Positions 17,738 through 35,381 of a DNA stretch of 64,000 bases are shown piece by piece. Each line of letters begins with the position of its first letter. Positions within the stretch are counted from its first letter, which is position 1. Under the pieces are notes generated by a model. That model made no database searches. It was given only the letters and a program-made list of their open reading frames with translations, and had not been told where the DNA came from. Source of the DNA: an uncultured Lachnospiraceae bacterium (GTDB taxonomy: Bacteria > Bacillota > Clostridia > Lachnospirales > Lachnospiraceae). The stretch lies in NCBI GenBank assembly GCA_947567595.1, contig CANOMQ010000014.1:1-64000 (forward strand). The letters are read 5' to 3'. Position numbers and translations under genes: made by a program.

Positions 17738-18072
17738 TTTATGTATATTGAAAATCGAGTAGAAATAATTGTCAAACATCTAATTAAAGGGATAAATTAT
17801 GATGCAAGAACTTCCGGGAACTTACAAATTTAAAATATAATATGGTAAAAAATAGCGAAATATATTATACTGTATATAGCTTTACTATTAGGCAGAAAAG
17901 CCGATGAAATCATCAATAAATAACCAGTTATAATTTCTAAAATCTTATAAATGGCAAACGAATCAGGTAAGAAACCTTGGAGAAGCCACAAAAGTCAAAG
18001 AACTTCCCTACACAGCGAAAGAAAAAGAATTGGCAGGTAGTCGGAAGGGATGAAAAAAGAAAGGGAACTTCC
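17738..18072 (+). other. Gene-free stretch before the U32 pair
   Basis: AT-rich, with no recognisable gene. A 13-codon frame at 17799-17840 (MMQELPGTYKFKI) follows AAAGGG with good spacing and could be a leader peptide or a scrap. The TATACTGTATA near 17870 may belong to the promoter of the U32 genes. Nothing else recognised. Confidence 0.3.
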
Positions 18073-18930
18073 ATGACCACTTATGAAATGAGAATTGATC
18101 GGTTAAATTTTAATACTGATATAAATTATGACAACATTCAAGCATTCAGTATCGGACACGAAAGCTGTATCCTTAAATTTTTCAAAGTAATCCGAAATAA
18201 TGAGTTGCTTAAGTTTATTGACAAAGAAAAAAATCTAGGGAAACAAATTCGTATCATTACTCCTTTTATTCCTGAAAGGCATTTGGCTGAAATAAAGGAT
18301 GTGTTGGCAGAAATCAATAACATAAAATGTTTCCATAACAGTGTAATCATTGTGAACGATTTGGGACTGATGCACTATATACACAAAATGAATGAGAACC
18401 GTCAATTGTGTTTGGGAAGAAATCTTTTAGCTTGCTTTGATTATGCACCATGGGGACATAGGATATACGAATCAGAAGACTTACACATACAAAAAGCAGT
18501 ATCCCAAGTAAGCTTATATGATGATGAAAAAATGGATTTTTTTAAAAAATATAATGTTACGGAAACAGAAGCAGATGTGACAAAAAGAACGGTAAAAAGC
18601 CTAAAAGAAATACAAAAATCCGGATTCAGAGTAAATATTTATAAATCTTCCTTTACATACGGCTTGCAGAGAAGTTGTTATATCAAGAGATATAACATAG
18701 ATCAGGGCTGCAGCGGAATGGAATGTGAATACTCAGAAAAACTAGATTTAGACGAACTGTGGTGCGGGGCGGAATTTTATAAAGAACAGGAAAACATCAA
18801 TTTTCCCTCCCCTTTGTATATACGGGGAAACCAAATCTATGGAAGAGCTCATGACATACCATGTGACTGGGCAGACAGCATTATTATAAGCCCAGAGCAA
18901 AATAATACTTACAAAGGAGCAGATATATGA
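18073..18930 (+). CDS. Divergent U32-family protein (UbiV-like partner)
   Basis: 285 residues from ATG 18073, behind AAAGGGAA; an upstream in-frame ATG (17977) lacks support and adds a lysine-rich unlikely tail. The region VIIVNDLGLMHYIHKMNENR and GRNLLACFDYAPWGH parallels the barrel strands of UbiV-type U32 proteins. Cysteines near the C-terminal third (RSCYIK, QGCSGMEC) could ligate an iron-sulfur cluster. It overlaps the start of the canonical U32 gene by four bases, so the two products probably form a complex like UbiU-UbiV. The family call is by pattern, not a search. Confidence 0.55.
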   Translation: MTTYEMRIDRLNFNTDINYDNIQAFSIGHESCILKFFKVIRNNELLKFIDKEKNLGKQIRIITPFIPERHLAEIKDVLAEINNIKCFHNSVIIVNDLGLMHYIHKMNENRQLCLGRNLLACFDYAPWGHRIYESEDLHIQKAVSQVSLYDDEKMDFFKKYNVTETEADVTKRTVKSLKEIQKSGFRVNIYKSSFTYGLQRSCYIKRYNIDQGCSGMECEYSEKLDLDELWCGAEFYKEQENINFPSPLYIRGNQIYGRAHDIPCDWADSIIISPEQNNTYKGADI

Positions 18931-19853
18931 AACTAAAAGTTCCAGTAAACTCTTATGAAGCATCAGTAAAACAAATTGAGGCAGGGGCGGATGAGATTTA
19001 TATGGGATTAGAAGATTTTCATTTCAACAGAATGTCCTATTCTGCCAGAGCCCAAATCGCCAGCTCCGGAGTTCACGCCAACTTAACGGAAGCAGATTTT
19101 GCAAAAAGCGTGCAATTTGCCCATTCTAAAAATGTCACGGTGAATTTTACCGCCAACTGTCAGCACATAACCAAAAGCGAGGGGGATTTTTATCGAAAAA
19201 ACTTCTTGGAATATGTCCGCCGTGGTATCTCCCTGGGTGCAGATGCAGTGATCGTGGCCGATATTGGAAATCTCATCGCTTTAAGGAAGAATGGGATAGA
19301 CACGCCTGTTATAGCAGGAAGTTATTTAAATTGTTTTAACAGCGAAACAGTCGCTTTGCTGAAAGACTTGGGAGTGTTCCGGATATGTATTCCCGATCAA
19401 GTAACCTTTAACGAAATAAAATCAATAAAAAAAAACACCTGTTTGGAAATAGAGATTTTTGTCGGGTACGGATGTTCTAATTTGGCAGGTATGTGTAGAT
19501 TTTACCATAACAGTGGAGAACAAATTCATGTAGGTGTGCCCTGCCGAGCCAAATTCATACGAAATAATGAGGAATCGGTCAGTATTATGGATGCCTGCCC
19601 AGATTGTGCAATCTGCAGTATTCCTAAATTATATGATTTAGGAATTGACAGTCTGAAGCTGATTGGCAGGGAAATGAATATTGAAGAAATCGTAAATATA
19701 ACAAAGATGTATAAATCAGCTATACAGCAATACGCAATGGAAGGAAGGTTTGACCGGAAAGAAATTATTTCATCCATTTCATGGTGGGAAAATGAAATGT
19801 GTTGTGAAAGATGCAAATACGAAGACACATGCTTACTGCGCTCTTATATTTAA
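18927..19853 (+). CDS. U32-family protein (UbiU/TrhP-like)
   Basis: 308 residues. The N-terminal barrel starts MKLKVPVNSYEASVKQIEAG then ADEIYMGLEDF as in U32 'peptidases'. Cys183-x6-Cys190-x15-Cys206 and the nearby CPDCAIC match the iron-sulfur cluster spacing of UbiU/RlhA/TrhP, and DSLKLIGREM is the usual closing motif. A further CCERCKYEDTC lies at the C-terminus. Known members of this family carry out O2-independent hydroxylation using prephenate-derived oxygen, or modify RNA. Placed tail-to-tail with the biosynthetic operon, it may hydroxylate the product anaerobically; that is inference. Confidence 0.75.
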   Translation: MKLKVPVNSYEASVKQIEAGADEIYMGLEDFHFNRMSYSARAQIASSGVHANLTEADFAKSVQFAHSKNVTVNFTANCQHITKSEGDFYRKNFLEYVRRGISLGADAVIVADIGNLIALRKNGIDTPVIAGSYLNCFNSETVALLKDLGVFRICIPDQVTFNEIKSIKKNTCLEIEIFVGYGCSNLAGMCRFYHNSGEQIHVGVPCRAKFIRNNEESVSIMDACPDCAICSIPKLYDLGIDSLKLIGREMNIEEIVNITKMYKSAIQQYAMEGRFDRKEIISSISWWENEMCCERCKYEDTCLLRSYI

Positions 19854-19931
19854 ACAATGATGAATAGGCGGCATTGGGTACAATTACACGGTGGGCAATA
19901 TTTTCTCCGATGCAGCCCATTTCATACATTT

Positions 19932-22187
19932 TTACAATCTTTCCCGTAGATAACAACCTGTAAGAGAATCTTCGCATTTCAGAATATTTTCAACAGTTCC
20001 CTGAAATACTACCTTTCCCCCATTTTTCCCTCCCTCTGGTCCCATATCTATAATCCAGTCGGCTTGGGCAATCACATCTAAGTTGTGTTCGATGACAATA
20101 ACTGTATTATGTAACTTTACCAGTAATTTCAGGACATTTATAATTTTTTCGGTATCCTTTGGATGCAATCCTCGTGTAGGTTCGTCAAAAATGTACATAT
20201 TTCCTCTTTGGGAAAGCTTTTGGGAAAGCTTAAGCCGTTGACCCTCTCCGCCAGAAAGCGTATTCAGGGGTTGGCCTAAAGTGATATATTCAAGTCCGAT
20301 ACGCTCCAGTATTTCCAAGCTCTTTACTATATCCTCCTCATTCTCGAAGAACTTCAAAGCCTCTGATACCGTCATTTCCAATACTTCAGAAATATTTTTC
20401 CCATAATATTTGAACTTTAGTACATTTTCCCTATACCGCCTGCCACCACAAACATCACAAATATTTCTCACATTGCCCAAATAATGCATATCCGTCTCAA
20501 TATACCCTTTTCCATTGCATTCCGGACAACTTCCCTCACTATTAAAAGAAAACAAAGAGGGACTCTGTCCTGTATGCCGCGCATACAGAACCCTTATCAG
20601 GTCAAACACCTCACTATACGTAGCGATATTTCCCCTAGAAGTTGATCCAATCTGGCTCTGATCCATGACAACTGCTTTTGGCGTATTTGCACAGATATAA
20701 GTTGACAGAGAAGTCTTTCCCGATCCAGATACTCCCGTAAGAACTGTTATGGCATTTTCCGGTATCCTGACAGATTCTCCATTAATATTGTGAATATGTA
20801 TATTATCATACTTCCGAAATTCTGCCTTTTCCTCATTAAACTGTATTTTAGCAGCTATTGTATTCCTGTTATTAAATACAGTGAACAGGCTGGAAGATTC
20901 ATTTCTCCCTATTTCTTCCGGCGTTCCTGCAACTACCAGTTTTCCTCCGTTTACTCCTGCACCGGGCCCGATATCAAGAATGTAATCAGCGTGTTTTAAA
21001 ATGTAGGGATCATGTTCAATGACAATTACTGTATTTCCCCTCTCCACAATCTTTCCTAAGCTCTCCGAAAGCTTACGCACATCGCGCTCATGAAGCCCTG
21101 CTGTAGGCTCGTCCAAAATATATGTAATATCTGTCAAAGAAGATACCAGTTGCTTCGCCAGCTTCAATTTCTGTGCTTCTCCACCGGACACGGATGAAAT
21201 AGAGCGGTTTAAATTCAGATAACCTATTCCCAGCCCCTGAATACTCTCAACCTGCTTTATTATGATAGGGAAAAGCATCTGTGCCGCAGGGCTGCTATTG
21301 TCGAGCTGTGCCAGCAGTCCGGGGATTTCAGAAAGTTCACATTCCACAAAATCCTTCATTGTAAAACAGCCTCCAAGCTTTACGTTTCTTGGCTTTTCCG
21401 ATAATCTCACGCCACCACACTCCGGACAGACCCCATCTGAAAAAAACTGACTGTCATAATCTGCAGCACTCAACCCCCGCTCGTCTTTTTTTCTCTTGAT
21501 CAGACGTTTTACAATCCCCTCATACGAAAAGGATTGCGCAACCTTTGCCCCCTTACTTTGAATCGAAACTGCATCACTGAAAAGAAGCCTGTTCATCTCC
21601 TCCTCTGTAAAATCGCACAGCTTTTTATCCATATCATAAAATTCACTTGCCTGTATTATATTCCAGTATCTGGAACCAACCTTCCATGTCTTATGTTGTA
21701 TCGCTCCCTCATTAAGCGATTTGCTCATATCCAGGAGATTGTTTTTATTGACCGTCATCGCCGTACCAAGACCGCCACAGACGGGACATGCGCCTGCAGG
21801 CGTGTTAAAGGAAAAATCCCCTGCGCTCAACATAGAATCACCCAGCCTAGAAAACAGAAGCCGCAAATGGGTATAAAGCTCTGTATACGTTCCTACCGTG
21901 GATTTCGGATTCCCTGTAAACATTCCTTGATTAATGGAAATACAAGACGTGAGACCCTCAATTCTGTCAAAATCCGCTGTTTCATAACGAGGCAAAATTC
22001 GCCTCGCATAGGAACTCAACGAATCCAGATACTGCCTCTGGGACTCGTTAAAAAGAATATCATATATCAGCGTGGATTTTCCTGATCCAGATACACCCGA
22101 GACAGCTGTTAATTTATGTTTCTGTATTGCAACATCAATATTTTTTAGATTGTTTTCCCGTGCTCCCCAAATTTTTATTTCTGACAT
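19932..22187 (-). CDS. Short UvrA-like ABC protein (DrrC-type self-resistance candidate)
   Basis: 751 residues against about 940-960 for repair UvrA. Two ABC ATPase halves are present: Walker A GVSGSGKSTLIYD (about 30-42) and signature SVSGGEAQKLKL (about 335), then GVSGSGKTSLS and LSGGEGQRLKL. Zinc modules CPVCGG, CPECGG, CPECNGKGY and CDVCGG are kept. About 190 residues are missing, mostly from the first half where UvrA binds UvrB. Proteins of this size, such as DrrC of the daunorubicin cluster, protect producers of DNA-binding drugs. It is the last gene of the operon, 38 bp after the KAS-like gene, with AGGAGG before its ATG. Confidence 0.85.
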   Translation of the reverse strand: MSEIKIWGARENNLKNIDVAIQKHKLTAVSGVSGSGKSTLIYDILFNESQRQYLDSLSSYARRILPRYETADFDRIEGLTSCISINQGMFTGNPKSTVGTYTELYTHLRLLFSRLGDSMLSAGDFSFNTPAGACPVCGGLGTAMTVNKNNLLDMSKSLNEGAIQHKTWKVGSRYWNIIQASEFYDMDKKLCDFTEEEMNRLLFSDAVSIQSKGAKVAQSFSYEGIVKRLIKRKKDERGLSAADYDSQFFSDGVCPECGGVRLSEKPRNVKLGGCFTMKDFVECELSEIPGLLAQLDNSSPAAQMLFPIIIKQVESIQGLGIGYLNLNRSISSVSGGEAQKLKLAKQLVSSLTDITYILDEPTAGLHERDVRKLSESLGKIVERGNTVIVIEHDPYILKHADYILDIGPGAGVNGGKLVVAGTPEEIGRNESSSLFTVFNNRNTIAAKIQFNEEKAEFRKYDNIHIHNINGESVRIPENAITVLTGVSGSGKTSLSTYICANTPKAVVMDQSQIGSTSRGNIATYSEVFDLIRVLYARHTGQSPSLFSFNSEGSCPECNGKGYIETDMHYLGNVRNICDVCGGRRYRENVLKFKYYGKNISEVLEMTVSEALKFFENEEDIVKSLEILERIGLEYITLGQPLNTLSGGEGQRLKLSQKLSQRGNMYIFDEPTRGLHPKDTEKIINVLKLLVKLHNTVIVIEHNLDVIAQADWIIDMGPEGGKNGGKVVFQGTVENILKCEDSLTGCYLRERL

Positions 22188-22225
22188 TGTCCTATTTCCT
22201 CCTGTTTCGTCTCTGTGCCTTACAA

Positions 22226-23104
22226 TTAAAACCGCCTTTTAATCAATGTACATCCCTGTGTTCCACCAAATCCCGGATTAATCAACATGGCTGTTTGCCC
22301 CGGAAGGATCACATTTCTTTCACACCAGTAAAAATAATGATAAAAACTATCCTGTGAGCTCAAATGCCCTGTATTACAGATATTGGCATCCAAAAAGGTT
22401 TCACGCGGAATCTTGGTCAATATGGCAAGTGCATCCCAAAATTCCCTGTTTGACGTATGGGTGACATAATAATCCGTCTTTTCCAAACCAGCCTTCTCCA
22501 GACAGTTTTCCATGGCTCTACGCATCAGGGAAAGGTTCACGCCGCGAAAGGCAGAAATATCCGATTCGCTGGAATTTTCCCCACTAGAAGCAAGAATAGT
22601 AGAAGATACATATCCCGAAAGAATCTGATGCTCTCCTTCTCCCTTCGCGATCAACAGCGCAACTACGCCGTCTCCCATAATCGTTCCGAAAAAGATACGT
22701 TCCTGATCAGAGTATGCCTTGTCAGCGCCAATTACCAATACAGAATGATACACCTCCTTCTCTACAAGCAAAGAGGCTATTTCTACTCCTTTGTGCATAA
22801 TGGCACAGGGCATACCACTCAGATAAAATGTAGGCACATCTTTCCAACCAGTATCCGTTTCCTGTCCATCCCTGCGGATAAAAGGCAGGGAATGTGTAAT
22901 CAATATACAGTCTGGCTTTTTCGTTATCTGCCCGCAGACATCCCGAATCATTTCCTGAAGCATCCTTTGATTATCTGTGGGAATCCTGTCAAGACCAATT
23001 TTTCTCATGTGTCTGACCTCTTCTTCCGAATGGCCTGTGGCAATTTCTTCAACGCTTCGGACTTCTCTTCCCAGTTCCCAGGCAAACTCCTTAATAACTA
23101 CCAT
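22226..23104 (-). CDS. 3-oxoacyl-ACP synthase III-like condensing enzyme
   Basis: 292 residues with a thiolase fold. The likely catalytic triad is Cys100 in LSGMPCAIMHKG, His216 in VTHTSNREF and Asn244 in CNTGHLSS, matching the Cys-His-Asn of FabH/KAS III. It would join an activated acyl or aminoacyl unit to another acyl group carried on the pathway's acyl carrier protein. It is shorter than FabH (about 320) and replaces the PHQAN motif by THTSN, so the substrate is probably not acetyl-CoA. It overlaps the previous gene by 14 bp. Confidence 0.8.
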   Translation of the reverse strand: MVVIKEFAWELGREVRSVEEIATGHSEEEVRHMRKIGLDRIPTDNQRMLQEMIRDVCGQITKKPDCILITHSLPFIRRDGQETDTGWKDVPTFYLSGMPCAIMHKGVEIASLLVEKEVYHSVLVIGADKAYSDQERIFFGTIMGDGVVALLIAKGEGEHQILSGYVSSTILASSGENSSESDISAFRGVNLSLMRRAMENCLEKAGLEKTDYYVTHTSNREFWDALAILTKIPRETFLDANICNTGHLSSQDSFYHYFYWCERNVILPGQTAMLINPGFGGTQGCTLIKRRF

Positions 23105-24044
23105 AATTAATCCATTCCTCCCAGTTCAAAGTAATACGATCCTCTGTCTCAGCCAGTCTATTAAAAAGATACTGAGACACAGTACCGCCATAACTCAATT
23201 CTCCCCTCAAAGTTCCTGCCGTTTCTATAAATCGGTTAACTTCTCCAATAATATACGGACTGACAGTAGCCACTTGATGATGCTCTGTTTCCTGAAGAAG
23301 CTTTAAAAGCATAATTTTCCTCTGTATCAGGTAATCCACATCATAGACAAGAGATATATGTCTTTTGGCAGATATGTTTTGGACCAGCTCCCCACATCTT
23401 TGAAATGCCCTGTATCCCTGTCCGTTTTCCCGAGCATCCCTCAAATTAATATGTGCTGTTTCCAGTGTATACCTGATCCGGGAGTCTCTGCTTTCCGCAG
23501 TTTCAGATACATTTACATTAATTACTGCGCGAGCAGTAAATCTGCCACAGGCCTCGGGAATATTCTGTACCGACAACATATTTATGATCTTTTCCGGAGT
23601 CAAAAGTAATCCGGGTACCCCCTCCGAATCAATCAGACGCCATAAATCCTTACTCTCCCTAATACAGGCAATATAATGATCTGCACATCTGTACTGCTGC
23701 GACAGAGGCAAATAAACCAATCCGACCATACTGACCGGACCAAGCACCACTCTGTCAATATACGGATCTCTCAACAGTTCCGCAATCGCTTCCTTTGTGA
23801 CTCCGTCTACTCTCTTCATCTGAAGTCCCCACAGGGGAGCCGCTTTATCAACTCCATAATGAAAGTCCCGGAAAACAGAGAGCATCCGGGTGCCAAAATA
23901 ATCCAAGCCCTCACAACTTACCCCAAACGAAGCTCCAGTGCTGTTTTCCAATGGAATCAGGGTATCATAACACAAATTCGCCGCATAAACCAATGCATAA
24001 GAACCGCATACGATCCAACTTCCGCTATATGTTGTATAATTCAT
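23091..24044 (-). CDS. BtrH-like protein with C39-type catalytic triad
   Basis: 317 residues. The start GSWIVCGSYALVYAANLCY carries Cys13. The segment RVVLGPVSMVGLVYLP, then CADHYIACI with His123 and WRLIDSEGVPGLLLTPE with Asp139, follows the Cys-His-Asp order of C39-like cysteine proteins, including the BtrH acyltransferase of butirosin synthesis. The remainder (about 160-317) is helical. It may transfer the ACP-bound acyl group to an amine or release it. The first 20 bases overlap the ligase gene. Similarity was judged by eye, so the family call is provisional. Confidence 0.55.
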   Translation of the reverse strand: MNYTTYSGSWIVCGSYALVYAANLCYDTLIPLENSTGASFGVSCEGLDYFGTRMLSVFRDFHYGVDKAAPLWGLQMKRVDGVTKEAIAELLRDPYIDRVVLGPVSMVGLVYLPLSQQYRCADHYIACIRESKDLWRLIDSEGVPGLLLTPEKIINMLSVQNIPEACGRFTARAVINVNVSETAESRDSRIRYTLETAHINLRDARENGQGYRAFQRCGELVQNISAKRHISLVYDVDYLIQRKIMLLKLLQETEHHQVATVSPYIIGEVNRFIETAGTLRGELSYGGTVSQYLFNRLAETEDRITLNWEEWINYGSY

Positions 24045-25461
24045 TTTCTTCCAAAATTCCTCTCAGCCTTTCATCATCTATTTTTCCGTTGACATTCAGC
24101 GGAAATGCATCCTTTATACAGTAAAATGCGTGAGGTCTTTGGTATTGCGGCAGGCTTAGGGCAGCCTGCCTAAGCTTTATCTGCAGATATCCGGCATCCT
24201 GTTGGCTGTTTACGCAAACAATAATTCTATCACCCTCCATCTCTGACGGAATTCCAATAATACGCAGCTCGTCCACTATCCCTTTAAGACGTTCTATCAG
24301 ATATTCTTCTAGCTCTGCGCATCCGATGCGGTATCCGCTAACCTTTAAAATTCTCTTTTTCCTACCACAGAAGTAAAGAAACCCTTCCTTGTCGATTCTA
24401 AAATAATCTCCCGTCCGAAGATTCCTTCTCCCGTCCCCATCCTCGAAAAAAACGTTCCCTGTTTCCTGAGCATTCCAATATCCCTCCATTACATTGGGTC
24501 CTCTCACTACCAGTTCTCCTATGCCATTTTCTGTTATCCGTTCCAAATAAACTTCCGTCCCTGTCAGTGGTGTACCACAAGAACCCTCCCATACCTTGTC
24601 CCATCGACCTTCAGGCATAATGGATACTCTCTTGCACTCAGTCAGTCCATACATGGGAAATACAAATATATGCGGAAACAGATTATGAATACGCCGGATC
24701 AACTCCACAGGGAAATCATCCCCTGTAGAACAGATATACCGCAGTTCTGGAAGCTCTACCCGCTGCAGAAGACCTGTTTTCAGCATCATGTTCAGCATTG
24801 TAGGCATAGCCGGAAAAGCAGTGATGTGCCCCTTTTTCAGCCATGCTGGTATCTGCTGCATCATAGGTTGATGAAGCAAAACCAATCTAGCCCCGGATTG
24901 TAGCGCCAAGAACAACTGATACAGTCCGTAATCGAAGGAAAGTGGCAAAACACACAGGATGCGGTCATCTGGCCCATTGTGCAGACGTTCATTAATCGCA
25001 TTCAAGCAGAATAAAACCTGTTTACAGGACGCCATAACGCCCTTGGGGCGTCCCGTTGAACCAGAAGTATACAATATGTATATCAATTCATCCTCTTCCT
25101 TCAGGGACTTATCTGGCTTCCACAGCTCACGTAGCTTATTACCGAAGCGTTCATGATCAATGAGCATGGACGCCCGGGAATCCTCCGCCAAATAGTTTAA
25201 TTGTTCCTCTGTTGCCGCCTCCGGAAGAGGAATGAAGCAGACATGGAGATAAATGCATGCCAAGAGTTCCACGACTGTTCTGATTGTATTATCATTTCTG
25301 ATTACTATGCGCATTCCGGCTTTCACACCCATCTCCATTATCTGATCTGCCAGTTCCCGCACTTTTGCATCCAGTTCCCCATATGTCATTTCTTCTTTCC
25401 CATCCGACAGTATTATACTGTCAGAAAAAACATGCTTTCCGACTAGTTCCCTGTAAAGCAT
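24025..25461 (-). CDS. Stand-alone adenylating acyl/amino-acid ligase
   Basis: 478 residues of the ANL (AMP-binding) superfamily. The phosphate loop is YTSGSTGRPKGV (about 131-142); FPMYGLTECKRVS is the A5 region, LRTGDYFRIDKEGFLYFCGR the A7-A8 hinge, and NVNGKID near 463 holds the catalytic Lys. It would activate a carboxylic acid as an adenylate and load it on the carrier protein encoded in the same operon. The overall pattern is like the acyl-CoA/ACP ligases of exosortase-linked and BtrJ-like systems more than a modular NRPS domain. The substrate is not predictable by eye. Confidence 0.85.
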   Translation of the reverse strand: MLYRELVGKHVFSDSIILSDGKEEMTYGELDAKVRELADQIMEMGVKAGMRIVIRNDNTIRTVVELLACIYLHVCFIPLPEAATEEQLNYLAEDSRASMLIDHERFGNKLRELWKPDKSLKEEDELIYILYTSGSTGRPKGVMASCKQVLFCLNAINERLHNGPDDRILCVLPLSFDYGLYQLFLALQSGARLVLLHQPMMQQIPAWLKKGHITAFPAMPTMLNMMLKTGLLQRVELPELRYICSTGDDFPVELIRRIHNLFPHIFVFPMYGLTECKRVSIMPEGRWDKVWEGSCGTPLTGTEVYLERITENGIGELVVRGPNVMEGYWNAQETGNVFFEDGDGRRNLRTGDYFRIDKEGFLYFCGRKKRILKVSGYRIGCAELEEYLIERLKGIVDELRIIGIPSEMEGDRIIVCVNSQQDAGYLQIKLRQAALSLPQYQRPHAFYCIKDAFPLNVNGKIDDERLRGILEENELYNI

Positions 25462-25466
25462 ACCGC

Positions 25467-26330
25467 CTACCGCCTTTCCATCCGGGACAACAACACACGG
25501 TTTTTCGTTTTCGCTGATCTCTCCACTGTATTCCTAATCGCACACACTGTCTCACAGCTTAGACCAGTGGTTTCTGTTATTTCTTTATCTGGGCGTTTCT
25601 CCGAGAGCATTTCCAAACAGGTATCCACTTTGAACTGCGTTAATTCGGCTTTCAGCTCCATAACCTTCTCGCACTCCTGATCGGAAAAGACCTTTCCCCC
25701 AGAAACCGGACCTCCATTATATAACCAGAATGCCAAATCCTCCAAGTCCTCCTCTCCTTCCCAAAAACCAGCCGACGGCTCCTGCTCAATCACCTCCCGG
25801 CGGGTACCCAATAAACCCGCCAGAATCCTTACCTCAGATTTGTACAGATGCGCAATGGGTTTAAAATGCCCTAGATTATCACCAAAAGGCATATAAAATC
25901 CTAGCTGTATCTCACTCAGGTTCGAGTTAGCTGCCACCAAAAATCCTTTGTCCTGATATGTGGAAAGAAAAGCTGACCTCAATGAACAGTTTGCCCTTGC
26001 CGGATCCAAAAGGCTGTCTGGCTGAAATCCCACATCAGGATCTCCCTTTTGCAAAGTCCGTATGAGCTGTACATTCATCTCTCCGGGACAAATAACCGCC
26101 GGAGAAACTCCGAGGTCAGCACCCAAATTTTTTACGTTCTTTAGGAATTTCCTGTCCATATGTGTCTGCTCCACTGTAAAAAGATGTATCCCATTCTTAC
26201 CAAGTACTCTGTGGCAAAGCCTTGCTACAACATCCGAATCAAGACCTCCCGATACAGGGATAACCACCTTTTCCTCCTCTTGTACATATTCCCGAATAAA
26301 TTTCTCAATGCGAATCAGCTCATATGTCAT
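25467..26330 (-). CDS. NadE-like ATP-dependent amide synthase (PP-loop)
   Basis: 287 residues with the PP-loop IPVSGGLDSDVVARLC (about 24-39) and NAD-synthetase-like motifs ANSNLSEIQLGFYMPFGDNL and FKPIAHLYKSEVRILA. NAD synthase adenylates a carboxylate and turns it into an amide. The helical C-terminus (about 190-287) ends in a small HTH-like segment rather than the usual NadE end. Its place between the ligase and a thiolase-like gene argues for a pathway role, amidating or coupling an intermediate, instead of housekeeping NAD synthesis. It overlaps the upstream gene by 11 bp. Confidence 0.75.
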   Translation of the reverse strand: MTYELIRIEKFIREYVQEEEKVVIPVSGGLDSDVVARLCHRVLGKNGIHLFTVEQTHMDRKFLKNVKNLGADLGVSPAVICPGEMNVQLIRTLQKGDPDVGFQPDSLLDPARANCSLRSAFLSTYQDKGFLVAANSNLSEIQLGFYMPFGDNLGHFKPIAHLYKSEVRILAGLLGTRREVIEQEPSAGFWEGEEDLEDLAFWLYNGGPVSGGKVFSDQECEKVMELKAELTQFKVDTCLEMLSEKRPDKEITETTGLSCETVCAIRNTVERSAKTKNRVLLSRMERR

Positions 26331-27129: not shown

Positions 27130-27130
27130 A

Positions 27131-28297: not shown

Positions 28298-28539
28298 TCT
28301 TTCTTCTCCAAAAAAGCGCATAAATCGCCAAATGTTGCAAATATCTTTTCAAAATCATCTTCTATCGGATCAAAGGTAAAGCGGAACTCTTCTTCGATTT
28401 CCACCTGAAGCATAACCATTTTCAGAGAATCCAACTCCAAACCAGCTCTCAGACTGGTTTCCAAATCTAAAGATTCAACTGGGGCAGCAATTACTTTATT
28501 CAGACATTTTAACACTCGTTTTTCTAACTCTGTACTCAT
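28294..28539 (-). CDS. Acyl/peptidyl carrier protein
   Basis: 81 residues, the right size for a free-standing carrier protein. The four-helix pattern has the phosphopantetheine attachment site at Ser38 in GLELDSLKMVMLQVEIEEEF (L-D-S-L). It would hold the growing intermediate as a thioester for the ligase, decarboxylase, KAS-like and radical SAM enzymes around it. It is acidic, as expected. The ATG at 28539 was chosen to match carrier length; the frame has two earlier ATGs. No 4'-phosphopantetheinyl transferase is encoded in the window, so a chromosomal one must serve. Confidence 0.88.
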   Translation of the reverse strand: MSTELEKRVLKCLNKVIAAPVESLDLETSLRAGLELDSLKMVMLQVEIEEEFRFTFDPIEDDFEKIFATFGDLCAFLEKKE

Positions 28540-28573
28540 ATATTTTATCATTCCTTTCCAATGCACAAAAAAA

Positions 28574-29761
28574 TTATAAATGTTGGTTCATATTAAAAGG
28601 ATAACTGGCGATATGACTTCTCATTATTGTCATCGTATTCCTTGACTCCTTAACAACCATCGGCAGATCTCTGCTCAGGAAAAAATTAGTTCCTTCTGTG
28701 ACACAATAGGCTCCGGCGTTAAGAAAGATAAGACGTTCACCCGGCTCCTTTTCAGGCAGATTTGCTGAACGTACCAAAACGTCATTAGATGTACATAATG
28801 CACCACATATTGTTGCTTCTCTGTTTTTGTCCATCCTGCTATTTTTCCCGGCATAGATAAAAGGGCTGAACTGTCCTTTTATCTGACCATCATACTGCAA
28901 ATGATGAATTCCCCCGTCTACAATGTAATATGTCCTCCCATTATTTACTTTTTTATCCACAATTTCAGTAATATAGACTCCTGTATCTGCAGTCAGCAGT
29001 CGTCCGCACTCCAAAGTAATCTGAAATTGTTCTGACAATACCTGCAGTCGATCGAATAAATAGGAAAGGCAGGACGCATACTCCGCCGGATTATGATTTT
29101 GAAACTGTGGCACACCCAGCCCTGGTCCATATTCTATTTCCAAAAAATTTCCCCGAGCTTTTTCCGCAACAGATTCTAGCAGGGTAATATCCTCTTCCAC
29201 ATCCTTAATTCGTCTTTTTTGGGTTCCAGAATAATAATGAATTCCCCTGAAGCGAAGGGAAGGAAATCTGTTCTGATGTTTTAAAATATCAACGACCACA
29301 TCAGGTTCCATCCCAAATTGATTCCCGCTACTAATCCGCAGAAGAATATCCGCTCCAGACCTGACGGCAGAGGCATATTTATCTGCCCAAATCAGTTGCC
29401 CTATGGACTCTATGGATATCCTTCGGGGGTGGGATTCTACCAGTTCTTTCAGCTCCTTATCACTTTTGTAAATTCCTCCAACAATTATCCTGTCTAAGGA
29501 AATCCCCTGTCTTTTGCATAATTCCCATTCTCCCGGAGAACAAACCTCGACATAATCCGCGTATTGCGCAGCGCTGGCAGCATACCACGGATTGGATTTT
29601 ACCGAAAAGCAGACCGTGTATCTTACTCCTGCTTGTTTTTTTAAACATATCACATTATCCCGCAGCCTGTCTTCATGAAACAGAAAAAACGGTGTATCTA
29701 TGTGACTACTTTCCCTTAAAATACGATTCATCTCCTCTGAAGTCCATTCTGTTTCAAACAT
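28574..29761 (-). CDS. PLP-dependent amino-acid decarboxylase (DapDC/BtrK type)
   Basis: 395 residues, fold type III. Lys55 in CFSVKSNPWY binds PLP; the barrel motifs GIHYYSGTQ, EIEYGPGLGVP and LECGRLLTADTGVY follow, and GALCTSNDVL holds the active-site Cys. This is the lineage of diaminopimelate, ornithine and BtrK decarboxylases; BtrK acts on glutamyl bound to a carrier protein. The neighbouring carrier protein and ligase make an aminoacyl-carrier substrate plausible. It begins close behind the unknown 291-residue gene with an 8-bp overlap. Confidence 0.88.
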   Translation of the reverse strand: MFETEWTSEEMNRILRESSHIDTPFFLFHEDRLRDNVICLKKQAGVRYTVCFSVKSNPWYAASAAQYADYVEVCSPGEWELCKRQGISLDRIIVGGIYKSDKELKELVESHPRRISIESIGQLIWADKYASAVRSGADILLRISSGNQFGMEPDVVVDILKHQNRFPSLRFRGIHYYSGTQKRRIKDVEEDITLLESVAEKARGNFLEIEYGPGLGVPQFQNHNPAEYASCLSYLFDRLQVLSEQFQITLECGRLLTADTGVYITEIVDKKVNNGRTYYIVDGGIHHLQYDGQIKGQFSPFIYAGKNSRMDKNREATICGALCTSNDVLVRSANLPEKEPGERLIFLNAGAYCVTEGTNFFLSRDLPMVVKESRNTMTIMRSHIASYPFNMNQHL

Positions 29762-30629
29762 GGCTGCTCTCCTCTATGTTTTTTATCAATGCCCAAAAAT
29801 CCCTGTCAATCTCGGCAATCTTTTCATATGCACAACTTCCGAAAACCGAACCAATTCTTAAAAGAATTTTGTCCAGCTCATCTATTACAGAACTGGGAAC
29901 TTGTATTTCCTGAACGCAGAATTTGACCACTTTACTTAGCTGAATCTGATAATTCATCAGACCATACCGGACAGACAGACTGGAAATTCTGTCCCACTCT
30001 ATATTAAAAATGTCAGGGCAGCATAAATCTTTTCTCCACTGATTATTCAAAATATCTCTTCTCCACTGCATTCCCTTGTGCAGTATTCTCTTGGCAGGCA
30101 GCCGTTGTATCTGCATTGGCATTTTACCCGTTAATACATAACCCTTTGAATTGAAAGTTTTCTCCATAACCTGTTTCTCTGTCATTTCTATAAAAGGAGC
30201 TCCCGATGAGGAATAGACCAAATGTCTTCCATCACTATGTCTATAAAGCAGGCAAAAGGGTGAAATTCCTTGATAGAATTTATCTCTAACTATTGGAATT
30301 TCCACACCTAGACAGACATCCGCCAGTAAAATAGGCCATTCTAGCTCACATGGCTGTATCTTCCAAACAGACGCTGGAATAATCGTACAAACTTCTTTGA
30401 TTCCAAGGTTGTCGCACAGTTCTTCAAGCGCACACCGAACAGGCTGCGCAGGGGAAAACCATTTTCTGATATCCTCTCCGAAAGAACAGGCAAAACATCG
30501 GAAGCTCATTACATCCGCAGGAATCAAATCATCCACCCCCGCATATTTCATCCACATATTCCATACGTCTTCAAAAGTATCCATACTTTTTCCTATATAT
30601 ACAGGCAAATTTATTTCCTCCATACCCAA
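29754..30629 (-). CDS. Second BtrH-like protein, probably non-catalytic
   Basis: 291 residues, weakly recognised. The middle region WPILLADVCLGVEIP, ISPFCLLYRHSDGRHLVYSS and IEMTEKQVMEK lines up in order and spacing with the GPV, DHY and DSEG/LTPE region of the 317-residue BtrH-like protein encoded in the same operon. The His position is a Ser/Pro context and the Asp is lost, so it probably lacks activity. The C-terminal half is helical. It may be a structural partner. Other interpretations remain open. Confidence 0.4.
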   Translation of the reverse strand: MGMEEINLPVYIGKSMDTFEDVWNMWMKYAGVDDLIPADVMSFRCFACSFGEDIRKWFSPAQPVRCALEELCDNLGIKEVCTIIPASVWKIQPCELEWPILLADVCLGVEIPIVRDKFYQGISPFCLLYRHSDGRHLVYSSSGAPFIEMTEKQVMEKTFNSKGYVLTGKMPMQIQRLPAKRILHKGMQWRRDILNNQWRKDLCCPDIFNIEWDRISSLSVRYGLMNYQIQLSKVVKFCVQEIQVPSSVIDELDKILLRIGSVFGSCAYEKIAEIDRDFWALIKNIEESSHV

Positions 30630-31393
30630 ATCTGGTTACCGGATTCTTCATTCCAAACAGAACCGTCAAATTCCCCCATAAGCGACTCCAAAATAAATCC
30701 AGCTTTTTGCGCAGCGCTCCCGATACATTCTTTGGAATACCATCGAAAACAAAACTGATCTGCCACAGTACCATTGACTTTTATGGTACAGTCCATATAC
30801 TCCTTTTCAAAATTATACAAATAATGGTCTTCTATCCTTACCCTATCGTCGCTATACATTAGAATATCCACGTCTTGGTGCGCTTCCGCCCACATCCTGT
30901 CAAACATATAATGATCCAGTATAAATCCTCCACCATGCTTTAATGCACGGTAAACTCCCTGAAACATTGCATCCAAATCCTTTTCTTTCAAAATATGCCC
31001 CACTGTCCGAAAGGGCAAATACACTGTACCAAATTGTTCGAAGTAATGCAATTTTGTCATATCTGCCTTTTCTAAGCAAAGTGTACCAGGACAACCAGAC
31101 TTTTTTTGGCGACAATATTCTGTAACACAAATATCCAACATTTCACTGCAAATATCCACTCCGATGATTTCCACCGCATAATGATGTACTAACAGGCGGG
31201 CTATCCGTCCGGTTCCCACTCCCAACTCTAAAAACGGACCTTCTCTTTGAGGAAGATAATTCATATAAAACTGTTTGGTCTTTTCATAAAATGGATCCCC
31301 TGTACACCACTTTTCATACAAGCAGGAAATGCCGGCATATGCTGTTTTTCCTGATTCTTTATCCTTTTTTAAATTATCTGAGATATTTTTCAT
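30611..31393 (-). CDS. SAM-dependent methyltransferase
   Basis: 260 residues from ATG 31393, seven bases after GGAGG. A class I Rossmann methyltransferase: motif I FLELGVGTGRIARLL (about 54-68), IIGVDICSEMLDIC as motif II, LCLEKADMTKL as the post-I acidic site, then a partner-specific C-terminal beta region. It transfers a methyl group to O, N or C of a small molecule; the target atom cannot be told. Its start overlaps the O-acetylserine-sulfhydrylase-like gene by 20 bp and its end overlaps the next gene. Confidence 0.85.
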   Translation of the reverse strand: MKNISDNLKKDKESGKTAYAGISCLYEKWCTGDPFYEKTKQFYMNYLPQREGPFLELGVGTGRIARLLVHHYAVEIIGVDICSEMLDICVTEYCRQKKSGCPGTLCLEKADMTKLHYFEQFGTVYLPFRTVGHILKEKDLDAMFQGVYRALKHGGGFILDHYMFDRMWAEAHQDVDILMYSDDRVRIEDHYLYNFEKEYMDCTIKVNGTVADQFCFRWYSKECIGSAAQKAGFILESLMGEFDGSVWNEESGNQIWVWRK

Positions 31394-32270
31394 AGGCGTC
31401 CTCCCCGTCTGGCGCCACCGCCAAGATTGTCGCACCCCTTTCCTTGGCAGCTATGCGTAACGCAGCTGCATATGCCATGCCACTGGAGATTCCTACACCC
31501 AACCCGAAGCTATTTCGAAGATTTTTAGCCAAATCAATGGATTCATTGTCCGTGATCGTATAGCTCTCATCCACAATCCAACTGTTGTTACTAATATTTC
31601 CGGGCTTACCACACAGACCCGTACCCGCATTAATATATGGCGCATCCACCGTTCCGTAAATTGTGGAGCCAAAAGGTTCCACTCCTATCATTTTTACTTT
31701 CTGAGACATTTTTTTCAAATATTTCCCAGTACCAATAATCGTTCCTCCAGAGCCCATGGGACAGATACAATGCGTAATCTTTCCTTCTGTCTGTCTCCAA
31801 ATTTCCGGGCCTGTTGTCATTTCATGAGCCATGATTCCGAAAGGATTATCATACTGATTAATCCAATAATACTGCCCGCTTTCCATCATGTGCCGCGCCC
31901 GTCTGATTCGGGAACTGCGCAAATCGAAGCCTTTCTCCTGCTCTACTTGAAAATATTCAATTCCTGTAGCATCTAAACGCTCTCGTTTTTTCTCCGCGAT
32001 GGATGAATCAATCAGGCATACGAACCTATATCCGCTCTCCTTACAAAAGTACCCCAAAGCATAACCTAAGTTTCCTGAGCTGGATTCTACAATAATCCTT
32101 CCTTTCGCATCCTCCGGCAGATATCTTATCAACCAGTAAGCGGTTCTAGCCTTAATACTCTTTAAGAAATTTTTCATTTCCAGTTTTAAAATAATTCTGT
32201 TACCATTCACCACGGGCAATTCTACTATCGGAGTGTTTCCAATACCGTATTCCCGGAAATCCCTCAGCAT
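31374..32270 (-). CDS. Cysteine-synthase-like PLP enzyme (SbnA/OASS fold)
   Basis: 298 residues, fold type II PLP enzyme. KLEMKNFLKSIKARTAYWL contains the PLP lysine (about Lys40); SSSGNLGYALGYF is the substrate loop and CPMGSGGTIIGTGKYL the phosphate-binding loop. Members make cysteine, or 2,3-diaminopropionate precursors (SbnA), by beta-replacement on O-acetyl- or O-phosphoserine. Within this operon it probably builds an unusual amino-acid unit. Slightly shorter than CysK (about 310). Confidence 0.85.
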   Translation of the reverse strand: MLRDFREYGIGNTPIVELPVVNGNRIILKLEMKNFLKSIKARTAYWLIRYLPEDAKGRIIVESSSGNLGYALGYFCKESGYRFVCLIDSSIAEKKRERLDATGIEYFQVEQEKGFDLRSSRIRRARHMMESGQYYWINQYDNPFGIMAHEMTTGPEIWRQTEGKITHCICPMGSGGTIIGTGKYLKKMSQKVKMIGVEPFGSTIYGTVDAPYINAGTGLCGKPGNISNNSWIVDESYTITDNESIDLAKNLRNSFGLGVGISSGMAYAAALRIAAKERGATILAVAPDGEDAYEKYLR

Positions 32271-32304
32271 AATCCCATTCCCCTTTTTATTCTGTTATCG
32301 TATC

Positions 32305-33240
32305 TCAACACACAATGGATACTGCCGAACAATAATAGCAGCTGTGTTTTAATTCTCCCTGTTTCAATCTGTCTTCCATATGCCCCATACCATTTTTATA
32401 AACATTCAAAATACAATGATTTTCCTCATTATCCCAAGGACAGAGAAAAACAGAACCATCGGCATGGATACTTATTCCGTTTTCCGTGGCAATTTCAGAT
32501 ACCGTCAATCTATTTGATTTCAGTTGGCTCTTGTAGGAAAGTACAGCTTCCCGCCTTGCGGCTGGAAGCATGATCTTTAACTGTAAATCATCCTCCCTAT
32601 TCTCTTTCTTCCACATGACCAGCTTTTCCAAAAAAGAAAAAAACAAAGTATCTTCCACTGTTAACAGATCGCCGTACCGTTCACCTCGCCCCACAGGTTG
32701 AAACTCATACACCTGAAAGCGATGGAAACCTTTGCGCATATAGTATGGCAGTGTCTCATCCAACAAATGTTCTGCATTAAGATTAGTCATGGTCAAGCGC
32801 AACCATACAGGGATTCCACTTTCCATATAGAACAGGGCATTCTTTACAACTTTATCCAACGTAATACCACGTACAGTGCGCTGTTGTTCGTCCGTGTGTC
32901 CTTCCACTGATACCCGTAACGCATGTATTCTGCAAAGCATTTCTATGATTTCCGAATCATCAGTACAAATAGTTCCGTTTGTGGTAATAGTTAGACACTG
33001 AAGAATTTCCGTTGGCAGACAATTCATTTGGCGAAGCAAATCCGTCCTAAGAAAAATCTCCCCTCCTTCAAGGTGAATTTCCGCTTCATATTCCGCACAA
33101 AAATATTTTATCAACTCCAACAGGCGACTGCTCTCTGGCATATTACAGATAGGTTTTTCCCCACTTTCATTATAGCAGTGGATACATTTCAGATTGCAAC
33201 TATCATTTGTGTGTAAATGTACTTCTAGCTTATCTCTCAT
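32305..33240 (-). CDS. Radical SAM enzyme with C-terminal cysteine cluster
   Basis: 311 residues. The SAM-cluster motif CNLKCIHCY (Cys15, 19, 22) opens the protein; the IHLEGGEIFLRTDLL and TITTNGT strands follow as in SPASM/twitch family enzymes. The end carries HADGSVFLCPWDNEENHCIL and SCYYCSAVSIVC, enough cysteines for an auxiliary cluster. Such enzymes modify peptides or small amino-acid derivatives. No precursor-peptide recognition domain is evident at the N-terminus, arguing against a standard RiPP role. Start ATG with GAGGG upstream; four bases after the next radical SAM gene. Confidence 0.85.
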   Translation of the reverse strand: MRDKLEVHLHTNDSCNLKCIHCYNESGEKPICNMPESSRLLELIKYFCAEYEAEIHLEGGEIFLRTDLLRQMNCLPTEILQCLTITTNGTICTDDSEIIEMLCRIHALRVSVEGHTDEQQRTVRGITLDKVVKNALFYMESGIPVWLRLTMTNLNAEHLLDETLPYYMRKGFHRFQVYEFQPVGRGERYGDLLTVEDTLFFSFLEKLVMWKKENREDDLQLKIMLPAARREAVLSYKSQLKSNRLTVSEIATENGISIHADGSVFLCPWDNEENHCILNVYKNGMGHMEDRLKQGELKHSCYYCSAVSIVC

Positions 33241-33244
33241 ACTT

Positions 33245-34429
33245 TTATCCCTCGTCTCTCATCCCATATCTTTCTGACAGGAACTGATACGCCCTGTCGA
33301 GACGTTCGGCGAAATGACCCTCTATCCGTTCCCTGCTATATTCTGACACCCAATTTTTCTCAAGCTGCAGCAACCTCGTAATATGCTGCTTTCTTTCTTC
33401 TATACTTTCGCTATCATTATAGGACGCAAGCATCTCATTAAAGCCCATTCTGTCAGTCTCTGGAACATATGGCGGAATCACTCCTGCTTCCCGATGTTCT
33501 CCATACCAGGCAACTCCCACTCTTGGTAAAAGCTCCTCCGGAAGCGCATTTAAAACCTGAATAATCATATTTCCGTCCACAGGGGCATACATTCCCTTTT
33601 CATATAGAAAATAAACAAGCGTATTCGGCTTGATATTGACCGGAAAGAGCATGACATAATCCGCTCCTTCCTGCAAAAGATCACGTATGCTGTCCACTGC
33701 ATCACATATCTGTTCTTCCCTATTCAGAAAAGGCGAACCTACTATAACATTGACAATACTTTTCGCCCCATAGCTGCGAATCCTGTTGAGAATGATTTTC
33801 CTTCCTTTCTCTGACATAGGCTTGTTTAGGCTGTAAAACTGAACATCCTTGTCTGTTGACTCCTGACCTATTTCAAAAAACAGACTTTTTTCGGGAATCA
33901 TCTCTCGCACATGCCGCACCATATTTTCCGAAAGTGTGACCATATGGGTTTCAAGGATAATGTCCTTCACAGGCTGATTATTTAACCATCTGAAAAGATG
34001 TTCCTGTTCCTCCGCCGTCAGTTCCTCCGAATCTAAGCAACTGCCACATGTGTTGACCAAAATCGTATCAATATTTTCGGGAATGGATACATTTTTTTCT
34101 ATTTCTGCAATTAATCCGGGAATTCTCTGTCCAGACCAGTAATTACAAATCGTACATTTGCCTTCCTTGCTGAATCTGCATGCAGGAGTCTGTAGCCATA
34201 ATTGAATAAGACCATTTGTTTCAAAAACCGAAAATGTCTTTGTAGGATCTAAAATCTGTCGGCTTTTCCTAATATATCGCATCACGGAGCCAAGCAGGGC
34301 ATTATCGCCGCCTCTACTTCTCAAAGCATATTTATTATCAAGATATTTTCTCTCTTTATCTGTCAGCAAGCTATGTATTTCCCTCCATTTGAATTTTCTG
34401 CCAATAAATCTGATGTCCGTTTCCTTCAC
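33245..34429 (-). CDS. Radical SAM enzyme, Elp3/RaSEA-like (2)
   Basis: 394 residues starting with GTG at 34429, overlapping the previous stop (ATGTGA), so translation is coupled. The cluster motif is C84-x7-C92-x2-C95 (ACRFSKEGKCTICNYW), the same unusual spacing as the 388-residue radical SAM protein in this operon; both share ETH/ETR and FFEIGQES/FIEIGVET strands and an 'LFPVNIKPNTL' versus 'LFPYHVKPGTL' segment. They are clearly paralogues. An 80-residue N-terminal region is specific to this copy. Two RaSEA-like enzymes in one operon suggest two successive radical steps. Confidence 0.8.
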   Translation of the reverse strand: MKETDIRFIGRKFKWREIHSLLTDKERKYLDNKYALRSRGGDNALLGSVMRYIRKSRQILDPTKTFSVFETNGLIQLWLQTPACRFSKEGKCTICNYWSGQRIPGLIAEIEKNVSIPENIDTILVNTCGSCLDSEELTAEEQEHLFRWLNNQPVKDIILETHMVTLSENMVRHVREMIPEKSLFFEIGQESTDKDVQFYSLNKPMSEKGRKIILNRIRSYGAKSIVNVIVGSPFLNREEQICDAVDSIRDLLQEGADYVMLFPVNIKPNTLVYFLYEKGMYAPVDGNMIIQVLNALPEELLPRVGVAWYGEHREAGVIPPYVPETDRMGFNEMLASYNDSESIEERKQHITRLLQLEKNWVSEYSRERIEGHFAERLDRAYQFLSERYGMRDEG

Positions 34430-35049
34430 ATCCCGTTAGAAATTTTATCAAAAATAATTAGATATACATTCTTCACATCAATCTCATTAATAATGATCCT
34501 GTGTTTTTTGCTGTTTTCTTCAGTCGATATCTCTACCTTTAGTTTCGGGTCATTGGTTCCGTTTACTTCCACTTTATCATATTCCCCGCTCCATTTATGC
34601 CTTAATACCACTACCATAGCCCTACATCCATAGGGATGTTCTGTAATCAATTCGAACTGCTTCATATCAGTTGCATGCGATTTTGGAAACAGATAAATAT
34701 AATCATCCTTTCGGTCTATCAGTATAAACCTTTCCCATTTATATTCTAAAGTTAATTTACTATTGTGGTTTTTTACTACATCCGTATTCAAATTGACATT
34801 CAGATAAGTACAATCATCCTGTTCCCTTTTGAACTGATAACTTGCTTTTGCGTCCTCTTGGCGCACCTTTATCCCCATACTATCTTCGCTCACCCTGTCA
34901 CCACCGCGAATCCCTACATTTATTCCTCTTATACGCTCTTGATCTGCGGTAAAAAATATTTCCCATTGTGCTGATAGATCCAGATATATATCATGTTCCA
35001 TATTGTATTCAAATTTATAATGCCATTTTAGTTTGTCTATCATCATCCT
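34426..35049 (-). CDS. Beta-rich protein of unknown function
   Basis: About 207 residues depending on which of several clustered ATGs is used; I favour MMIDKLKW at about 35046-35049. No signal or membrane segment. Alternating hydrophobic strands (HDIYLDLSAQWEIFF, KLTLEYKWERFILI, KVEVNGTND, HRIIINEIDVKNVYLIIFD) suggest a beta-sandwich. No family recognised. It is the second gene of the operon and ends in an overlap with the radical SAM gene. A binding or immunity role is possible but unsupported. Confidence 0.5.
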   Translation of the reverse strand, partial: RMMIDKLKWHYKFEYNMEHDIYLDLSAQWEIFFTADQERIRGINVGIRGGDRVSEDSMGIKVRQEDAKASYQFKREQDDCTYLNVNLNTDVVKNHNSKLTLEYKWERFILIDRKDDYIYLFPKSHATDMKQFELITEHPYGCRAMVVVLRHKWSGEYDKVEVNGTNDPKLKVEISTEENSKKHRIIINEIDVKNVYLIIFDKISNGM

Positions 35050-35120
35050 ATTTCTTGGTTTATGCACCTGAAAATAAATGATTTCCTCAAAAATATCATA
35101 ATACTCTTTTCCATGAATGG

Positions 35121-35318
35121 TTATTTTTCCATAATTGCCTTGAATTTATGTAATTCAAACCATGTCCTTCCACATATGCATGCGAATAATATCATTCCAA
35201 AAAAATATATATCACAAAACTGCGTTTTATCTATAGACACTAGCTTTCTAATAACATCATATACAGCCGTGGCTACAATAGACACTGCAAAACTTATTAT
35301 GATATCTTTCTTTTTCAT
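35121..35318 (-). CDS. Small two-helix membrane protein
   Basis: 65 residues from ATG 35318 behind GGGAGAG. Two hydrophobic segments (about 5-22 and 37-52) are joined by a polar loop, with a basic N-terminus. A longer in-frame start (35381) lacks a ribosome site. It appears to be the first gene of the biosynthetic operon, 70 bp upstream of the unknown beta-rich gene. No family recognised. Confidence 0.5.
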   Translation of the reverse strand: MKKKDIIISFAVSIVATAVYDVIRKLVSIDKTQFCDIYFFGMILFACICGRTWFELHKFKAIMEK

Positions 35319-35381
35319 TCGTCTCTCCCTTATATATCTTTTAGCAGTTATTAAAATTTTGGTATAAAAAATTTTTATCAT

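Follow-up and report, generated by a model that had tools for sequence, protein, structure and literature searches.

An operon in the genome of a gut-type Lachnospiraceae bacterium raises the question of what can be made by a free carrier protein, radical S-adenosylmethionine (SAM) enzymes and acyl transferases whose genes end in a UvrA homologue. The operon lies in a stretch of 64,000 nucleotides (hereafter the window; positions 1 to 64,000 of contig CANOMQ010000014.1, assembly GCA_947567595.1, uncultured Lachnospiraceae bacterium). We consider it rather probable that this locus is an undescribed carrier-tethered biosynthetic cluster, independent of nonribosomal peptide synthetases (NRPSs), with a dedicated self-protection UvrA and a product acting on DNA. 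Its parts are of known kinds, their conserved combination is new, and the pointer to a DNA target is good but indirect. A sequence-only reading of this DNA had proposed a natural-product cluster of seventeen contiguous genes here; we count 18 open reading frames (ORFs; g01 to g18) in window 17,977-35,381, including g17 (213 amino acids, aa) and g18 (86 aa). Sixteen of them, mostly overlapping, are on the minus strand, and two convergent ORFs (g01 and g02) are on the plus strand. The spacing among the 16 ranges from -62 to +53 bases, so these genes probably form one operon, with the gene for the 751-aa UvrA homologue at its end, as had been read.

A recurrent gene set with a co-inherited UvrA

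The gene set is found again, with its order largely preserved, in Lachnospiraceae, Vallitalea, Synergistaceae, Marichromatium gracile DSM 203, a Methylococcaceae metagenome-assembled genome (MAG) and Chthoniobacter flavus. A scan of genome contigs gave 18 loci. One genome of the same genus (G021) has 15 cluster genes with the order kept (46-87% identity), and the Vallitalea genome (G191) has 14 of the cluster gene families at 19-49% identity. Outside Bacillota, cluster genes are found in a goat-rumen Synergistaceae MAG, Marichromatium gracile DSM 203, the Methylococcaceae MAG and Chthoniobacter flavus Ellin428; a 3.6-kb Dojkabacteria fragment also has cluster genes, and G475 and G295 have variant clusters. 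The cluster is rare. The g09 protein is matched at E <=1e-20 in 3 of 194 relatives (own genome included). Within the order, its profile finds 8 of 392 genomes at 1e-25, a count that takes in the own genome and weaker paralogues, and within the phylum the KAS III profile finds one of 398 at 1e-60, namely the window's own. It is absent from G010, a genome of the same genus with flank proteins 97% and 90% identical, which is collinear with window 35,725-62,407 apart from a gap at 53,351-60,112 (~6.8 kb); this collinearity ends at 35,725. Since the genes are syntenic in distant genomes, and since G010 is collinear beside the cluster and lacks it, the cluster is more than a chance grouping. The homologues co-occur rather than being scattered, and the proposal of a real, conserved carrier-tethered biosynthetic cluster is borne out.

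The UvrA homologue g03 (19932..22187; 751 aa) lacks the UvrB-binding domain. In the alignment with UvrA 3pih the target jumps from 118 to 262 between query residues 118 and 120, and the same gap appears against two housekeeping UvrAs. CxxC pairs at 134, 254, 554 and 577 indicate Zn modules 2 and 3 (in the scheme for UvrA-like proteins in the available part of PMC10192343), and the ATP-binding cassette (ABC) motifs are also present. The same available text gives this domain layout for the echinomycin resistance protein Ecm16, whose insertion domain is needed for DNA binding and whose protection of E. coli K12 persists when UvrB is absent; the UvrA-like proteins of the clusters tabled there accompany DNA-binding products (PMC10192343). 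We also found a UvrA-like protein of similar size, 40.7% identical to g03, encoded within a few genes of that for the enediyne chromoprotein on a plasmid of the C-1027 producer. With Ecm16 and DrrC (echinomycin, daunorubicin) and the protein of the C-1027 region, g03 shares its size, the loss of the UvrB-binding domain and of Zn module 1, and its place within a biosynthetic cluster, whereas theirs is a polyketide or NRPS cluster context.

We then built a tree of 36 UvrA proteins, comprising nine cluster proteins, 12 housekeeping proteins and 15 short paralogues. The last are nine of the ten that match at 39-43% identity near full length (that of G070 was omitted, as were weaker or partial matches), two from G494 and four from plasmids. 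The nine cluster UvrAs form one clade (94/97, and in 92% of 200 bootstrap trees), the housekeeping UvrAs a separate group (100/100) and the short paralogues, with the C-1027 protein, a third (100/100). The earlier label of a DrrC-type UvrA thus holds for domain architecture and not for grouping, as the g03 clade is separate from the 15 short UvrAs in a tree that does not include Ecm16 and DrrC themselves. Grouping with housekeeping proteins, named beforehand as the outcome that would count against the cluster, is not seen, and we reject g03 as a housekeeping repair UvrA because it lies outside the 12-protein group. The window's own genome carries a separate 956-aa UvrA (L109).

Fifteen loci were used to count the association of UvrA with the cluster (window, L009, L013, L014, L015, L016, L017, L018, L019, L020, L021, L022, L024, L099 and L100); L023, L025-L029 and L101, which are short fragments or have RaSEA-like genes and few others, were left aside. 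UvrA is in or beside the cluster in eight (window, L009, L013, L016, L018 through L010, L019, L024 and L099). Among the nine loci with a KAS III gene, it is in or beside the cluster in seven, in the same genome in one (L021) and missing in L022. In L021 (Marichromatium), the UvrA gene lies apart from the cluster, on a 3.5-kb contig that also carries an IS1-type transposase. The UvrA gene stands at the end of the operon (window, L009, L013, L019), at its start (G191) or inside it (L016, L024, L099), which speaks against a single hitch-hiking event. UvrA distances track those of six pathway genes (Mantel r 0.897-0.985, with 0-3 of 2000 permutations as high; 7-8 loci, L099 and L100 left out), and a core-gene tree gives the same main grouping as the UvrA tree. 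We therefore reject UvrA as a chance neighbour, given its recurrence at different operon positions and its divergence together with the pathway genes. These results support a UvrA built like DrrC and Ecm16 that is inherited together with the rest of the cluster, and we propose, by architecture and context, that g03 may be a self-protection ATPase.

Enzymes of the cluster

Genes were identified by Pfam and NCBIfam scans of the window ORFs. The Pfam matches given here for g02-g15 exceed the cut-offs, and the NCBIfam matches lie under the curated cut-offs, with the sole exception of g07 and TIGR00552. The scans confirm most of what had been named from sequence, including the carrier, the ligase, the KAS III-like, DapDC/BtrK-like, OASS-like and NadE-like enzymes, the methyltransferase and three radical SAM proteins (two RaSEA-like and one MoaA-like); the BtrH-like proteins are also present (g05 and g12).

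Two pairs of related proteins stand out, g05 with g12 and g04 with g08. The g05 protein (23091..24044) is a putative BtrH/CtaG-type papain-like transferase. Its predicted structure matches CtaG (closthioamide), CcbD and AziU3/U2, and the CtaG fold with the predicted Cys-His-Asp triad (C13-H123-D139) is newly recognized in the present analysis. The BtrH_N domain (PF14399) gave no match for the window BtrH-like protein and matched three of ten homologues at E up to 1 (best 7.4e-6). The g12 protein (29754..30629) matches g05 in profile comparison (98.2%, E 6e-14) and has T, P and S at the triad positions in the window protein; we propose this triad-less paralogue as a non-catalytic partner of g05. 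Similarly, g04 (22226..23104; PF08541/PF08545) is a KAS III-like acyl transferase or condensing enzyme with C100, H216 and H247 in 9 of 9 rows, and with Asn at the presumed FabH Asn position in 4 of 9. The g08 protein (26320..27129) has a predicted KAS III/type III polyketide synthase fold without the catalytic Cys. This fold was absent from the sequence-only reading, and g08 is proposed as a partner of g04. When the g05 and g08 profiles were compared with the sequences of solved structures, only chance-level matches were obtained.

The free acyl or aminoacyl carrier protein g10 (28294..28566; PF00550 4.9e-8) has the phosphopantetheine Ser47 in 12 of 12 rows. It is encoded in the same cluster as the CtaG-type triad transferase g05, a combination expected of a closthioamide-type pathway. 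The AMP-forming ligase g06 (24025..25461; PF00501 1.6e-67, TIGR03098 1.7e-82) has an SFDY-type pocket motif in 10 of 14 rows in a pattern search (the remaining four rows were not inspected); the motif includes the Asp that makes contact with an amino group in adenylation domains. The DapDC/BtrK-like decarboxylase g11 (28574..29761; PF00278, PF02784, TIGR03099 9.4e-49) depends on pyridoxal phosphate (PLP), and its PLP Lys55 is found in 11 of 12 rows, the twelfth having a gap. The OASS/SbnA-like PLP beta-replacement enzyme g14 (31374..32270; PF00291 1.1e-55, TIGR03945 1.8e-55) has PLP Lys40 in 7 of 7 rows, and g13 (30611..31435; PF13649 4.4e-13) is a SAM methyltransferase.

The first RaSEA-like radical SAM enzyme, g09 (27131..28321), has its CX7CX2C cysteines in 15 of 15 rows, and the second, g16 (33245..34429), has the radical SAM cysteines in 4 of 4. 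Both fall short of the archaeosine RaSEA cut-off (TIGR01210, 212.15 bits) with 134.8 and 81.7 bits, respectively. The MoaA-like radical SAM enzyme g15 (32305..33240; PF04055 1.2e-11) has its CX3CX2C cysteines in 6 of 6 rows. We know of no role for RaSEA-like enzymes besides archaeosine formation in tRNA. RaSEA itself converts a preQ0-lysine adduct to archaeosine (available part of PMC11298593), and an amidine formed in the product by RaSEA-like C-N cleavage would be a guess by analogy. RaSEA-like genes also lie near DapDC-like decarboxylase genes in Candidatus Methanodesulfokora (L026:9854-12158) and in an Anaerolineae MAG (L025:4084-11146); the remaining cluster genes are absent from the stretches examined there, and the pair may be an older two-enzyme unit.

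The NadE-like PP-loop ATP pyrophosphatase g07 (25467..26330; PF02540 8.7e-30) has SGGxDS in 12 of 12 rows. It scores 94.6 bits against the NAD synthase domain model TIGR00552 (cut-off 63.65; match at residues 7-200 of 287) and 114.6 bits against NF010587 (cut-off 255), and the other NadE models are also below their cut-offs.

A pair of U32 proteins had been read at g01 and g02, and one of the two stands. The g02 protein (18927..19853, plus strand; PF01136 5.7e-29) belongs to the U32 family (UbiU/TrhP superfamily). The g01 protein (17977..18930, plus strand; 317 aa), which bears cysteines and is coupled to g02, has no Pfam or NCBIfam match, so that it is not assigned to a family, and its profile, of two rows only, shows no similarity to that of g02. 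The g01 orthologue in L009 is 64% identical and starts at a point corresponding to an ATG at ~18073, which is therefore probably the true start of g01. In g02, Fe-S-type cysteines (CX6CX15C; compare the available part of PMC6747719) were read off the sequence and make it a candidate O2-independent hydroxylase. Single U32 genes also stand before the G499 and G191 clusters (L097:2391-3497, L010:10549-11655 and L019:1563-2822). Synthesis without O2, as had been suggested, is plausible in the window's genome, but Chthoniobacter and one Methylococcaceae MAG, both of aerobic or microaerobic groups, also carry cluster relatives. The two remaining proteins, g17 (34426..35067) and g18 (35121..35381), have no family match, nor any match at E 1e-6 in the other loci examined, and g18 is a probable membrane protein from its hydrophobic stretches.

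A proposed pathway and its alternatives

From these identities we infer the following order of steps. The AMP ligase g06 would activate an amino acid and load it onto the carrier g10, and the DapDC-like g11 would decarboxylate the tethered unit. With BtrK, which decarboxylates a carrier-bound amino acid, as a guide, a dicarboxylic or diamino acid on the carrier is a possible starter. Tailoring of the tethered unit would fall to the three radical SAM enzymes (g09, g15 and g16), the OASS-like g14, the PP-loop ligase g07, the methyltransferase g13 and the U32 protein g02. The g05 transferase, probably with the triad-less g12, and g04 with the Cys-less g08 would carry out carrier-bound acyl transfer, joining or releasing units. 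The product, which probably acts on DNA, would bind or damage it, and g03, without its UvrB-recruiting part, would act like Ecm16, binding drug-loaded DNA and clearing or shielding it in an ATP-driven manner.

Three known systems resemble parts of this scheme. Closthioamide (cta) of Ruminiclostridium cellulolyticum follows an NRPS-independent logic, which may escape standard cluster finders. No radical SAM, U32, OASS or UvrA gene is named for cta in the available text on it. In that text, the thioamide synthetase CtaC is a TtcA-like Fe-S protein, unlike the NadE-like g07; among the eight NCBIfam and one Pfam families matching g07 there is no TtcA model, and the best are NAD synthase models. 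The second closthioamide loader described there, CtaD, is an ATP-grasp enzyme, for which the 30 window ORFs scanned gave no match, and the proposed substrate of CtaF is aspartate. TtcA, ATP-grasp and NRPS megasynthase genes are all lacking among the family matches of the window ORFs scanned. AziU3/AziU2 of azinomycin is 9% identical to g05 and closes an aziridine by sulfate displacement (available part of PMC12559475), while no sulfotransferase match occurs among the cluster ORFs. The butirosin pathway (BtrH, BtrI, BtrK) shares with our cluster a carrier and a DapDC-like decarboxylase, and its BtrH_N-type transferase has a possible counterpart here; it differs in that an AMP ligase is found here in place of the ligase BtrJ and that aminoglycoside genes are absent here. 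To our knowledge, butirosin has neither UvrA nor RaSEA-like genes. No cluster with this set is described in the titles and abstracts listed by our searches of open-access literature (subscription papers were outside the scope), in agreement with the sequence-only reading.

Several observations weigh against a DNA-acting product guarded by g03. No product is known for the cluster, and no exporter was found among its ORFs in the Pfam and NCBIfam scans. CcbD (by solved structure) and BtrH (by Pfam family) serve ribosome-targeting drugs, so the g05 fold is uninformative on the target. The g07 score above the TIGR00552 cut-off means that g07 may still be an NAD synthase. The cluster UvrAs lie outside the short-paralogue clade, so that the resistance role would be one by analogy; L024 is a long branch within their clade in a tree without an AU (approximately unbiased) test, and the Marichromatium UvrA in the Mantel correlation was drawn from the separate contig. 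No cluster-clade UvrA is found at six of the 15 loci (L014, a 5-kb fragment, L015, L017, L020, L022, and L100, whose genome was not searched for UvrA), and the genomes of the first five have one UvrA match each, of housekeeping length. L022 has a KAS III gene, yet the single UvrA match in its genome (G502) is of housekeeping type.

Two of the UvrA-less situations have other genes in view. In the Methylococcaceae cluster, an MgsA/RarA-type genome-maintenance AAA ATPase gene (L022:9334-10629) overlaps the OASS and RaSEA-like genes, and UvrA in Chthoniobacter occupies the OASS-adjacent place that this gene holds in L022. Three other UvrA-less clusters encode, beside g12, pentapeptide-repeat proteins of 766-881 aa whose N-terminal parts have hydrophobic stretches (L015:85-2568, L017:2870-5515 and L020:2473-4773). 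We had considered these as a second DNA-protection gene hinting at a gyrase-type target and have dropped this idea to weak evidence. L015, L017 and L020 form one clade of the core-gene tree (99/98), so the association counts as one event. L015 has no KAS III gene after g05, and the contigs of L017 and L020 stop inside g05, so that absence of KAS III is not established for these two.

The first alternative is a real carrier-tethered cluster with a target other than DNA, in which the UvrA-like ATPase might, for example, bind or sense the product or serve in regulation. The distinctness of the cluster UvrA clade from the sampled short paralogues, the related clusters without UvrA (L015, L017, L020, L100 and L022) and the g05 fold family, which serves products with differing targets, are consistent with this. 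However, g03 retains the ABC motifs and both DNA-side Zn modules, the OASS-adjacent place of UvrA in Chthoniobacter is held in L022 by the genome-maintenance MgsA/RarA gene, and UvrA-like proteins go with DNA-binding products (available part of PMC10192343), C-1027 having one; we regard this explanation as unlikely, though it deserves to be kept in mind. It is improbable that the cluster modifies a nucleic acid or cofactor with no secreted product, its RaSEA-like enzymes working as in archaeosine formation and its UvrA reading modified DNA. A GGCTMC-type motif is common to the RaSEA-like enzymes and to relatives at two archaeal loci (L026 and L028), and the PP-loop enzyme g07 exceeds the NAD synthase domain cut-off. 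On the other hand, no transglycosylase or ArcS-type match occurs among the ORFs (g01, g17 and g18 having no match at all), the RaSEA-like scores are far under the family cut-off, the set of carrier protein, transferase and KAS III suits product assembly, and few genomes have the cluster, the near relative G010 being among those that lack it. A metallophore- or polyamine-like pathway with SbnA-like and decarboxylase genes and UvrA as a chance neighbour is very improbable, as the SbnA model (TIGR03945) among the OASS matches is set against the lack of any NRPS-independent siderophore (NIS) synthetase or metallophore uptake match among the cluster ORFs and against a UvrA whose position varies while its association and divergence stay linked.

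Returning to the DNA-directed cluster, we see an even chance that it represents a new class of DNA-targeting small molecules made without polyketide or nonribosomal megasynthases in gut and environmental bacteria, with one free carrier, decarboxylated amino-acid units, tandem RaSEA-like tailoring (possibly giving amidine or cyclized nitrogen groups), transferase pairs of active and pseudo-enzyme, and a UvrA guard co-evolved across phyla. Few natural products come from strict anaerobes, and this set couples carrier-tethered chemistry with RaSEA-like radical enzymes and a built-in target clue. If the product acts on DNA, gut-type Lachnospiraceae would make a new class of antibiotic or genotoxin. 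Two named strains, Marichromatium gracile DSM 203 and Chthoniobacter flavus Ellin428, have the same cluster, and the question is therefore testable now.

Surroundings of the cluster

We also investigated how the cluster sits in the genome. A simple insertion between flanks that are adjacent in G010 was not borne out, since G010 has the left flank (15,277-17,571) at another place. A 140-base repeat (83% identical) is found at the left edge of the cluster (17594-17733) and at 7158-7296, possibly marking the border of a rearrangement or insertion. A DUF3800-XI RNA match (17611-17658, minus strand) lies within the copy at the cluster edge. Carriage by a plasmid or phage was considered and set aside. 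There was no plasmid match for g05 and no phage match for g09; g09 had two distant matches on Streptomyces plasmids, with unrelated neighbours at the one inspected. An anti-phage system was likewise set aside. In a PADLOC scan of ten cluster proteins, UvrA matched best to mad3 (7.1e-73), which looks like ABC-ATPase similarity, g15 matched viperin weakly (3.5e-12), and the other eight had no match.

The G499 cluster (L019/L097) comes with an ATP-grasp gene beside it that has an L-amino-acid-ligase domain match (L097:3522-4997) and with a gene for a major facilitator superfamily (MFS) transporter. Two close relatives presumably come from mouse-gut collections, judging from their record names. 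Further along the window, a 2055-aa ORF (53659-59826) contains tandem repeats (55608-57590; ~94% identical, offset 582 bases) in a stretch absent from G010, and a 1422-aa protein with a glycosyl hydrolase family 25 domain (40838-45106) is encoded near an Rce1-like protein and an ABC transporter gene.

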